64,000 nt of DNA from Psychroflexus sediminis (GTDB lineage Bacteria > Bacteroidota > Bacteroidia > Flavobacteriales > Flavobacteriaceae). Under the pieces are notes generated by a model that saw only the letters and a program-made list of their open reading frames with translations, ran no database searches and was not told the DNA's origin. The translations under genes were made by a program, and so were the position numbers. Positions 35,963-39,984 of the stretch are shown here, piece after piece (position 1 is the stretch's first letter; each line of letters starts with the position of its first letter). The stretch lies in contig NZ_FNCW01000003.1 in the NCBI RefSeq assembly GCF_900099815.1, positions 62,001-126,000 on the forward strand. Direction: 5' to 3'.

Positions 35963-36033
35963 TATTAGTTGTGATGGCATAAAGATTGACTTTTATGAAT
36001 CGAAATCAATTATTAAGAATAAAAAAAACAATT

Positions 36034-37941
36034 ATGGGTAAGATTATAGGTATAGATTTAGGAACGACCAACTCTTGTGTCTCCGTTATGGAGGGAAATG
36101 AGCCAACGGTTATTCCTAATGCTGAAGGAAAAAGAACTACACCATCTGTTATAGCTTTTGTAGAAGGTGGTGAAATTAAAGTAGGTGACCCTGCAAAACG
36201 TCAGGCCGTTACCAATCCAGAAAAAACGATTTCTTCTATTAAAAGATTCATGGGAAATAAGTTTTCTGAATCCAAAAAAGAAGTAGAAAGAGTCCCTTAT
36301 AAAGTGGTAAAAGGTGAAAATGATACCGCTCGTGTCGATATCGACGGTAGAATGTATACACCTCAAGAACTTTCTGCCATGATTCTTCAGAAAATGAAGA
36401 AAACCGCAGAAGACTATTTAGGTCAGGAAGTGACTGAAGCTGTGATTACAGTTCCGGCATATTTCAATGATTCTCAAAGACAAGCCACTAAGGAAGCTGG
36501 AGAAATCGCAGGTTTAAAAGTGAGCAGAATTATCAATGAACCTACAGCTGCTGCTTTAGCTTACGGTCTGGACAAAAAAGATACAGACCAGAAAATTGCT
36601 GTATTTGACTTTGGTGGTGGAACGCATGATGTTTCTATCTTGGAATTAGGAGACGGCGTATTTGAAGTATTAGCTACTGATGGTGACACTCACCTGGGTG
36701 GTGACGATGTTGATGAAGTGGTCATCGATTGGTTAGCCGAAGAATTTATCAAAGATGAAGATATCGATCTTAGAAAAGATGCCATGGCACTTCAGAGATT
36801 AAAAGAAGCAGCCGAAAAAGCAAAAATTGAATTATCATCTTCCAATTCAACTGAAATTAACCTGCCATATGTCACTGCGACACAAAGTGGTCCTAAACAC
36901 CTGGTAAGAACTTTATCAAGATCAAAATTTGAACAATTAATTTCAGACCTGGTCAAAAGAACAATCACACCATGTGAAAAAGCCTTAAAAGCTGCAGGAT
37001 TAAAAACCAGTGATATCGATGAAGTTATCCTAGTAGGTGGTTCAACACGTATTCCAGCAGTACAAAAAGCGGTGGAAGATTTCTTCGGAAAGAAACCTAG
37101 TAAAGGTGTAAATCCGGATGAAGTTGTTGCTATCGGTGCAGGAATTCAAGGTGGTGTATTAACTGGAGATGTGAAAGATGTATTGTTACTCGATGTAACA
37201 CCGCTATCTCTTGGTATCGAAACTATGGGTGGTGTAATGACCAAGCTTATAGAAGCCAATACCACTATTCCATCTAAAAAGTCTCAGGTATTCTCAACAG
37301 CACAGGACAATCAGCCAAGTGTAGAGATTCACGTGTTACAAGGTGAACGACCAATGGCAACGGATAACAAAACGATTGGTAGATTCCACTTAGATGGTAT
37401 TCCACCAGCAAAACGAGGAGTTCCTCAAATCGAAGTTACTTTTGATATTGATGCCAATGGTATTATCAAAGTAAGTGCTACCGATAAAGCAACTGGAAAA
37501 TCTCAGGACATTAGAATTGAAGCTTCTTCCGGATTGACTGAAGAGGAAATCAAGAAAATGAAGCAGGAAGCTGAAGCCAATGCTGAGGCTGATAAAAAGG
37601 CTAAGGAAAAAGTAGACAAGCTAAATGAAGCTGATGCAATGATTTTCCAAACTGAAAGTCAAATGAAAGAATTTGGTGACAAAATTTCTGATGACAAGAA
37701 GAAGCCTATCGAAGATGCTTTAGAAGAATTGAAAGCAGCTTACGAAACTAAAGAGCTTGAGAAAGTTACTCCAGCTTTGGAGAAATTGAATGAAGCCTGG
37801 AAAACTGTTTCTGAAGAAATGTACAAGGCACAAGCTGAATCTCAGCAAGGTGGTGGTGAGCAGCCAGGACCTGATGCTGACGATTCCAAAGGAAACGGCG
37901 ACAGCGATGTTGAAGACGTAGACTTCGAAGAAGTCAAATAG
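36034..37941 (+). CDS. dnaK: Molecular chaperone DnaK
   Basis: Hsp70 chaperone of 635 residues. The ATPase domain ([27 protein letters not shown]) is followed by the DLLLLD-type linker [12 protein letters not shown], the substrate-binding domain and an acidic C-terminal tail ending DVDFEEVK. An in-frame ATG at 35986 would add 16 residues, but the family starts at [10 protein letters not shown], so I chose 36034. Its grpE and dnaJ partners are not next to it. Directly after the stop lies a second copy of its last 16 nt. Confidence 0.98.
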
Positions 37942-38075: not shown

Positions 38076-39305
38076 TTATAAGGTGAATTCATAAACGATA
38101 TACAGTAATCCAAAGCAAATTAAAAGAAACAGGCAGATTTTGGAAAACAGCAAATAACCTGAACTCATTCTGATCGGATTTTTTTTATGGGTCATCAATT
38201 TCAAATTGAACCAGGCCAAAACGGGAGAAGCCAAAAATGATAATCCTGACGCAAAATCAACTAAAACGGTAAAGGTGCTTTTTAAAGCATAAAGAATCAT
38301 AAGGGCTATCATGGGAATCCCAATGATAAAAATACGGTAGGCATTGGTTTCCTTTAGGCTTTGATTATCTTTTTGTGTCAACTTGGACATCACTCTGGGA
38401 AATGCATCGGTTACCGTTAAAGTGGTGCTGAACATAGTCACGAAAGCGATAAACGCAATTAAAACCCTGCTCCATTCGCCTAAAGTCTGCGCATACATTT
38501 CGATCAATTGTCCAGAAAATGCAACACTGCTGGAAGCAAAACTGATGTCGCTGTTATTCATGAGAAAAAGGCCCATCAGGAAGAATAAAATACCCAGCAA
38601 AGCAGCTGACAAATAGCCTAAGTTGAAATCGAAACCAGCTTCTTTTATGCTGGGCTGCTGCTGAGTTTGTTTAGATTTTTCCTGAATCCAGATGGAATGC
38701 CATACAGATGCATCAATAGGAATAGGCATCCAGCCCATTAAAGCTATAACGAAGCCCATTCCACTAAGCGTCCATAAATTCGATGTTTTATTAAAGCTGA
38801 TAGTCGAAAAGTCGACCTGAAAAGCAGCGATAATCACTGAAAACAGGGTGGAAATGGTTAAAAAACTGACCACGATTTTCATCAATACATCCAGTTTTTT
38901 GTACTTACCGATGAGTAGGATAAGAATACATAAGAGCAACAGAATAAGACTCCACGTAAAATTTGACCAGCCAAATCCAAATAAATATTCGGCTAAACCC
39001 GCAGAAACAATAGTCACCGCAGCCTGAATGATAAACATTGTAGAGACGGTTATCAAGGCAAAAACATTGACATACCACCGGCCGAGTATTTTGTATCCCT
39101 CTATTAAATTTTTACCGGTGGTTGCTGCATACCTTGATCCAAATTCCATAAAAGGATATTTGGTAAGGCAGGCAATTATAATAGCAAAGATCAAAACTAC
39201 ACCATAATCGGCTCCTGCCCGGGTGGCTTGAACCAAATGTGACACCCCTATTGCAGCACCAGCTAACAAAAACCCCGGGCCAATGTGTTTTAATACACCT
39301 TTCAA
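38076..39305 (-). CDS. Nramp-like transporter with non-canonical metal site
   Basis: A 409-residue membrane protein with about eleven helices and the Nramp fold. It aligns with MntH without gaps across helix 1, but the metal-binding DPGN is replaced by GVSH (residues 20-23). In helix 6 the MPH motif is replaced by PID near residues 196-198, just before a conserved WHS. Asp is therefore lost in helix 1 and gained in helix 6. The substrate may not be Mn or Fe. It is monocistronic and convergent with dnaK. Confidence 0.85.
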   Translation of the reverse strand: MKGVLKHIGPGFLLAGAAIGVSHLVQATRAGADYGVVLIFAIIIACLTKYPFMEFGSRYAATTGKNLIEGYKILGRWYVNVFALITVSTMFIIQAAVTIVSAGLAEYLFGFGWSNFTWSLILLLLCILILLIGKYKKLDVLMKIVVSFLTISTLFSVIIAAFQVDFSTISFNKTSNLWTLSGMGFVIALMGWMPIPIDASVWHSIWIQEKSKQTQQQPSIKEAGFDFNLGYLSAALLGILFFLMGLFLMNNSDISFASSSVAFSGQLIEMYAQTLGEWSRVLIAFIAFVTMFSTTLTVTDAFPRVMSKLTQKDNQSLKETNAYRIFIIGIPMIALMILYALKSTFTVLVDFASGLSFLASPVLAWFNLKLMTHKKNPIRMSSGYLLFSKICLFLLICFGLLYIVYEFTL

Positions 39306-39444: not shown

Positions 39445-39984
39445 ATGAGTCAAAAATTGCTTCTTAATGCGAAGGAAATCAATATCATTCTTCAGCGCTT
39501 AGCTTGTCAACTTGTTGAAAATCATAGAAATTTTGAAAATTCTGTACTTATTGGCATTCAGCCAAGAGGAAGTTTTTTGGCGAATAGGCTTTTCGAGATT
39601 TTAAAAATGGATTACGGTTTAACTGCGCTAGCTTACGGGAAGCTGGATATTACATTCTATCGGGATGATTTCAGACGTGGAGACAAGGTTTTAAAAGCCA
39701 ATGAGACTGACATTGATTTTATCATCGAAAACAAGCATGTGGTTTTGATTGATGATGTGTTGTTCACAGGGAGAAGTATACGTTCGGCTTTAACGGCTTT
39801 ACAGTCTTTCGGAAGGCCCTCCAAAATTGAATTGCTGACATTAATCGATAGACGCTTTAGCCGACACTTACCTATTCAACCCGATTATAACGGCAGAAAA
39901 GTGGATGCTATAAATAATGAACATGTAAAAGTCTGTTGGAAAGAGAACGATGGAGAAGACGCTATATATGTCTTGAAAAACTAA
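39445..39984 (+). CDS. pyrR: PyrR: pyrimidine regulator / uracil phosphoribosyltransferase
   Basis: A 179-residue type I phosphoribosyltransferase with the PRPP motif VVLIDDVLFTGRSIRSA near residue 95 and the PyrR-typical ALAYGKLDITFYRDDF. In Gram-positive bacteria PyrR binds pyr mRNA to cause attenuation; here there is almost no leader and no antiterminator, so regulation of this promoter by attenuation is not supported. It is followed by pyrB after 9 bp. Confidence 0.93.
   Translation: MSQKLLLNAKEINIILQRLACQLVENHRNFENSVLIGIQPRGSFLANRLFEILKMDYGLTALAYGKLDITFYRDDFRRGDKVLKANETDIDFIIENKHVVLIDDVLFTGRSIRSALTALQSFGRPSKIELLTLIDRRFSRHLPIQPDYNGRKVDAINNEHVKVCWKENDGEDAIYVLKN

Follow-up and report, generated by a model that had tools for sequence, protein, structure and literature searches.

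What does a protein of the Nramp family carry once the motif that binds the metal has been replaced? This question is raised by a gene of Psychroflexus sediminis that lies in a 64-kb stretch of DNA, here called the window. An initial annotation described its product as an Nramp-like transporter lacking the metal-binding motif and suggested that its ion and coupling may differ from Mn2+/H+ symport.

A maintained gene for a protein of the Nramp fold

Judged from its sequence, the gene at 38076-39305 is real, maintained, and under purifying selection, given that comparison with six Psychroflexus orthologues gave dN values of 0.09 to 0.13 against dS values of 1.0 to 2.8, which are near or at saturation (saturated above 1). 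The TTG start is found at the identical place in the six orthologues. In Psychroflexus salis, the orthologue (L014:5986-7224) is divided into two ORFs of 276 and 123 aa, reflecting either a frameshift or an error of the draft assembly. The gene is solitary in the window, lying tail to tail with an ORF at 35986-37941 and head to head with an ORF at 39445-39984, whose start is about 140 bases from its own. From their translations, we judged these flanking ORFs to be DnaK-like and PyrR-like, respectively; neither is pxpA or pxpB. No Rfam family reached its gathering score anywhere in the 64-kb window.

Table 1. Features of the transporter gene, in positions of the window
Feature	Position	Strand	Remark
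GxSH-clade Nramp-related transporter gene	38076..39305	minus	409 aa, TTG start; intact ORF
Helix-1 motif G20-V21-S22-H23 replacing DPGN	39237..39248	minus	gapless alignments; G, S, H in 119/119
Lys49, helix 2, at DraNramp position 85	39159..39161	minus	119/119
Helix-6 break W192-M193-P194-I195-P196-I197-D198 replacing A-T-V-M-P-H-V	38712..38732	minus	W, M, P194, D/E198 each 119/119
Helix-8 pair D300 + R304	38394..38408	minus	both 119/119

The window protein matched the broad Nramp model of Pfam, PF01566, with 46.1 bits (cut-off, 29.8) and the NCBIfam model NF037982, typed as an equivalog, with 66.8 bits (cut-off, 50), both of which place it among the Nramp divalent metal transporters. PF01566 is described as comprising Slc11, an orphan outgroup, and NRMT (PMC9606685, PMC10606218). 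Neither of the curated MntH models (NF001923 and TIGR01197) matched the window protein up to an E value of 1; a canonical control (L164) scored above both cut-offs. Across 74 full-length members of the clade described below, 71 matched PF01566 at an E value of ≤0.001, and matches to the amino-acid-permease family PF13520 were weak and confined to 4 of the 74. NRAT gave the best single match in the PDB sequence search (E value, 0.019; 4e-5 by profile), and the Pfam search found no second domain on the 409-aa protein. One relative from the phylum of Salinisphaera (L192:1453-2745), which reads GGSH, scored below the cut-offs of both Pfam Nramp (22 versus 29.8 bits) and NF037982 (40.5 versus 50 bits), so such genes may go unnamed by annotation pipelines.

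The predicted structures point to an Nramp/LeuT fold of eleven helices. In PDB searches, Nramp chains came first both for the window protein's AF2 model (74 rows, pLDDT 81.9, pTM 0.85) and for that of a relative from Salinisphaera (57 rows, pLDDT 85.7, pTM 0.84), with the YcsG model 9a52 also among the matches. VIA-align superposed the window model on DraNramp 6c3i_B with a Z score of 38.2 and an rmsd of 3.2 Å over 379 residues. The amino-acid carrier AdiC reached a Z score of 32.6, level with the lower Nramps, so the fold alone is no argument for metal. Helix 6 is broken in or beside the W-M-P stretch in both models, and helix 1 is drawn unbroken through GVSH (pLDDT there, 64 to 85), whereas in Nramps the centre of this helix is described as unwound (PMC8806188). 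We take the unbroken helix 1 as a hint only, given the shallow alignments and the moderate pLDDT.

Replacement of the metal site and the proton path

One genome per species was scanned, which yielded 78 loci with best-segment identities of 39 to 85% to the window protein. Five with split, over-long, or cut ORFs (L014, L069, L073, L074, and L076) were left out before counting, and the remaining 73 BLAST relatives and the window protein gave 74 full-length sequences, all of which have G20, S22, and H23. A profile made from these 74 rows, all of which carry the motif though they were gathered by overall similarity, was then used, after loci from whole-genome searches had been added, to choose 119 unique sequences (window included) by profile score alone (>300 bits; ORFs of <330 aa left out); no score falls between 95 and 340 bits. 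When profile matches of any length were considered (n = 115), GxSH was present in 113, and the other 2 were cut ORFs without that part. As far as these sequences tell, GVSH in helix 1 is neither chance nor decay, since G20, S22, and H23 are kept clade-wide.

Helix 1 aligned without gaps to the solved Nramps, both to NRAT 8ont with HMMER and to DraNramp with MAFFT, with GVSH (residues 20 to 23) at the place of DPGN. In the gapless alignment, a 28-residue helix-1 stretch of the window protein is set against IGPGFLLAGAAIGVSHLVQATRAGADYG. The residue-by-residue correspondence proposed initially was thus confirmed, and the translation contains no DPG, hence no intact DPGN elsewhere in the protein. 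For helix 6, the initial annotation had read PID in place of MPH. Met230 and His232 are indeed lost in either register, and an acidic residue does stand in the helix-6 break, but the alignments (HMMER against NRAT, also by profile, and MAFFT against DraNramp) keep the proline in register and set I195-P196-I197 at the place of MPH, with Asp198 one residue past it at DraNramp Val233; NRAT reads TPY at this place. The PID register amounts to a shift by one that is anchored on a later HS, and MAFFT opened a one-residue gap just after D198, which leaves the register uncertain by one. The profile alignment with EleNRMT is gapped in this region and does not settle it.

In DraNramp numbering, all 119 sequences have G at 56, S at 58, H at 59, K at 85, W-M-P at 227 to 229, D at 333, and R at 337. 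Position 233 is D in 102 and E in 17, and position 57 is V in 99, G in 10, A in 6, and T in 4. The place of M230 is taken by I (81 sequences), A (32), T (5), or S (1) and that of Q378 by T (88), A (19), M (10), or S (2). M193, which is invariant and two residues from the M230 place, could act as a soft ligand. The acids of the proton path are replaced as well, E134 by T in 94/119 and D131 by A in 99/119 (T98 and A95 in the window protein). N82 is kept in 77/119 and is Cys in the window protein, and His at position 237 was found in 75/119, window included, in this alignment. At the place of R352/R353, the alignment is unsure, giving F326/I327 in one version and Y323/R324 in the other, with R at 353 in 26/119.

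In DraNramp, N59 is reported as a direct metal ligand, along with networks of N82 at the outer gate, Q89 at the inner gate, and Q378 (PMC10185341). By sequence comparison, then, the side chains of the canonical metal site (D56, N59, M230, and Q378, with H232 and E134 beside them) have been replaced, and another set is invariant. The description of an Nramp-like transporter without its metal-binding motif therefore applies to the whole clade (119/119) and not just to the window protein. Mn2+/H+ symport through the usual site is very unlikely, given the clade-wide loss of the metal motif and of the proton-path acids. This agrees with the suggestion of a different ion or coupling as far as the usual mechanism goes.

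A separate clade and its relatives

The initial annotation had proposed a phylogeny that includes NRMT and NRAT. Our trees took in NRMT, whereas NRAT was compared by motif and alignment only. In these trees, the GxSH rows were monophyletic, both among 74 rows (30 rows, support 100) and in a careful tree of 52 (21 rows, 100/100). The nearest groups were two for which we coined the names GSGE (1 row) and GAGD (3 rows). The GTGS, GPGS, and GPGT rows, the NRMT side, and the canonical Nramps formed one set with support of 100/99, a fork that separates GxSH from GPGT. Forcing GxSH together with canonical Nramp cost 42 log units and was rejected (p-AU 0.0006), as was forcing it together with canonical Nramp plus NRMT (p-AU 0.003). 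These trees are to be read with the very long branches of the GSGE row and of the NRMT-side rows in mind, for which the program issued a warning. From the sequences, GxSH is a separate deep clade that falls neither within canonical Nramp or NRMT nor within the YcsG/PxpT-like clade.

The clade shares some features with each of its relatives. With canonical Nramp/MntH/SLC11 (DraNramp, BfraNramp), it has in common the fold, the Pfam family, and the gapless helix-1 GPx...GA frame, but it is without DPGN, MPH, E134/D131, and Q378 and forms a clade of its own. With NRMT (EleNRMT, Mg2+), it shares the fold and the absence of Met at 230, and the Nramp proton path is reported missing from EleNRMT (PMC12873925), as in GxSH. 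However, NRMT has E at 134 (3/3 rows, one of them EleNRMT), where most GxSH sequences have Thr; GxSH also differs by its helix-1 Gly and branches further out in the tree. The published motifs (PMC8806188) are DxxG-TxxA/T for NRMT and DxxN-AxxT for NRAT (Al3+); the window protein reads GVSH and WMPI, unlike either. The YcsG/PxpT/MntG group (GPGT) resembles GxSH in its Nramp fold, its Gly at D56, and its lack of the canonical ligands at 59, 230, and 232, but, unlike GxSH, it has GPGT in helix 1, V-P-Y in helix 6, a kept Q378, N/D at 134, and, at the loci retrieved, pxpA/pxpB nearly always adjoining. GAGD and GSGE share with GxSH the Gly at D56 and the Lys at 85 (GAGD, 3/3; GSGE, 1/1; canonical, 0/6), but they have Asp or Glu at N59 instead of His and a different helix-6 sequence.

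This comparison also bears on the initial proposal that a new helix-6 Asp balances the one lost from helix 1, which we did not find supported. Gly at the D56 place is usual in the related clades (GPGT, 17/17; GTGS, 9/9; GPGS, 5/5; GSGE, 1/1; GAGD, 2/2 rows with letters there), and among these clades Asp occurs at the D198 place only in the one GSGE row.

Nramp-related proteins without DPGN and MPH, paraphyletic to the canonical Nramps, have been described by Ray, Berry, and Gaudet (PMC12873925), who distinguish a 'G-motif 3' group, to which MntG belongs, from an NRMT-like group and call the other groups entirely uncharacterised. The general existence of such groups is therefore already in print as a 2026 preprint, and the GxSH clade may already sit in that tree under another name. 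The GxSH signature was not found in print within our search of open-access text, which gave no match for GVSH together with Nramp and does not extend to figures such as the clade logos of PMC12873925. GVSH is a marker of an old, wide, and unstudied branch of a known superfamily.

Members of the branch were found in Bacteroidota, Balneolota, Planctomycetota, and Pseudomonadota, and in bins of Planctomycetota and Neomarinimicrobiota. PF01566 matched in 99 of 120 sampled Flavobacteriaceae genomes. The scores of the listed rows fall into classes, one of which (57 to 74 bits) has at least 42 rows among the matches listed; 20 of these were retrieved, and all 20 read GVSH. The GxSH profile matched 51 of the 296 genomes of the phylum sample at an E value of ≤1e-30. 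In the sample from the Salinisphaera phylum, 20/249 matched at ≤1e-6, 12 of them with >300 bits. A partial GxSH gene, 52% identical to that of the window, was seen on a 3-kb contig of a Halothece MAG (L074), a cyanobacterial bin in which it is possibly misbinned. The named genera carrying GxSH loci are mostly ones that we take to be marine or saline. We do not count salt as a common factor among the results, given that the scan favours close kin.

Genomic context and possible cargo

Gene neighbourhood failed to indicate a substrate. The window gene's position between DnaK-like and PyrR-like ORFs recurs in Psychroflexus, and a pyrimidine link suggested by the head-to-head PyrR-like ORF was rejected, as the arrangement was seen only at Psychroflexus loci. 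In Balneolaceae, the gene mostly next after the GxSH gene encodes a beta-propeller protein, in part with an HlyIII gene between. At 20 Flavobacteriaceae loci (L111-L130), an ECF sigma factor gene precedes the GxSH gene in 17, the two often sharing a few bases, and lipA follows in 18. We examined the sigma-lipA interval in ten genomes. It holds no GxSH gene in three (G314, G001, and G032), about 0.9 kb of other sequence in G007, and a GxSH gene in G117; in the remaining five, among them that of the window, lipA was found without a sigma gene beside it. The GxSH gene looks inserted into an older operon, given that the sigma-lipA order exists with and without it, and a lipoate or iron link was dropped because the sigma-lipA order occurs without the gene. 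Neither a metal gene nor an organic-pathway gene was seen among the identified neighbours, which were few in Pseudomonadota.

The P. sediminis genome (99.95% complete, 36 contigs) contains two PF01566 matches. The second (L079; G000:C25:187049-188101), at 272 bits, was rejected as a canonical Nramp since it reads GPGT; it is of the YcsG/PxpT-like kind. It adjoins a DUF2891 gene, with neither pxpA nor pxpB beside it, and the one LamB_YcsF (pxpA-like) match of the genome is on another contig (C20). At the flavobacterial GPGT loci L084-L110, pxpA was present in 26/27 and pxpB in 25/27, by Pfam names in the retrieved flanks, which fits the 5-oxoproline operon known from Bacillus and Corynebacterium. 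On this basis, we took the GPGT clade as the PxpT kind, PxpT being placed by its operon and not by sequence. Corynebacterium PxpT is reported to be needed for growth on 5-oxoproline (PMC13274462), and Bacillus subtilis YcsG (MntG), of the GPGT kind by its operon, is reported to import Mn2+ and to raise cellular Mn (PMC10448178). The PF01566 search showed no DPGN-type Nramp in the window genome, and a ZnuA-type binding protein was not found there, so Mn2+ entry must rely on something else; ZIP and FeoB genes are present. Flavobacterial Nramps of the DPGN type at L081-L083 are 625 to 630 aa long and thereby exceed the other rows by some 200 residues.

In the reading that we favour, to which we assign a probability of roughly 0.4, the window protein would be a LeuT-fold carrier that does not move Mn2+ through the usual site and lacks a proton path of the Nramp kind, and its cargo is slightly likelier to be a small polar or charged organic solute than a divalent metal. 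As in the relatives, transport would proceed through alternating access centred on helices 1 and 6. H23, W192, M193, and D198 would be at or near the central site, given that DraNramp positions 59 and 227 to 233 lie there. K49, on helix 2 between N82 of the outer-gate network and Q89 of the inner-gate network, would line the way between the gates, since positions 82, 85, and 89 are on one face of the helix. The organic solute is favoured because an invariant Lys is predicted beside the site and the known metal ligands are lost, and PxpT, with 5-oxoproline, may serve by analogy as a precedent among Nramp-related proteins. What counts against the organic reading is that His23, Asp/Glu198, and Met193 would all be capable of holding a metal and are invariant, in a genome in which no DPGN Nramp was seen.

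These same residues make a second reading nearly as likely, namely that the protein carries divalent metal by means of a rebuilt site, in which H23 (at the N59 place), D/E198, perhaps M193, and backbone carbonyls would bind Mn2+, Fe2+, Zn2+, or hydrated Mg2+, and which would be uncoupled from protons like NRMT and the clade B Nramp. H23, M193, and D/E198 are each kept in 119/119, and N59, whose place H23 takes, is a direct ligand in DraNramp (PMC10185341). In BfraNramp, the metal is reported to be shifted towards helix 3 and transport to work without proton coupling (PMC12873925). Although D56G abolishes Mn2+ transport by DraNramp (PMC13060092), YcsG/MntG is a reported Mn2+ importer (PMC10448178), so loss of D56 by itself is compatible with a metal cargo. 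A rebuilt site would nevertheless have to work with I, A, T, or S in all 119 sequences for the soft ligand M230, with E134 lost, with T, A, M, or S for Q378, and with an invariant Lys at 85; a sign of a metal regulon is likewise missing from the Rfam search of the window and from the identified neighbours.

The Nramp-like part of plant EIN2 is an example of this fold in a non-carrier. A receptor or structural membrane protein of this sort would suit the solitary gene and the helix 1 that both models leave unbroken, where Nramps are unwound (PMC8806188), but we consider it improbable, given that the invariant charged residues in helices 1, 2, 6, and 8 resemble a working site and that no second domain was found. 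An ordinary MntH-type Mn2+/H+ symporter that tolerates an altered motif is hardly credible. PF01566 and NF037982 do file the protein with the divalent metal transporters, but it has neither DPGN nor MPH nor the acids of the proton path, neither MntH model recognises it, and membership is rejected by the tree.

A bolder version of the organic-solute reading is that GxSH is a carrier family within PF01566 that moves no metal at all, with an unbroken helix 1 and a network of S22-H23, K49, W192, D198, and D300-R304 that would bind a polar or charged organic solute. We regard this version as rather doubtful. If it were true, the divalent-metal label, which databases assign to GxSH proteins on overall similarity, would be wrong for the whole branch, and the Nramp family would have gained metal transport late. 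With a site that is invariant yet different and a wide spread, the clade lends itself well to testing what cargo the Nramp fold had before Mn2+. At one locus (L220), two GxSH genes of 417 and 421 aa stand in tandem, 165 bases apart.
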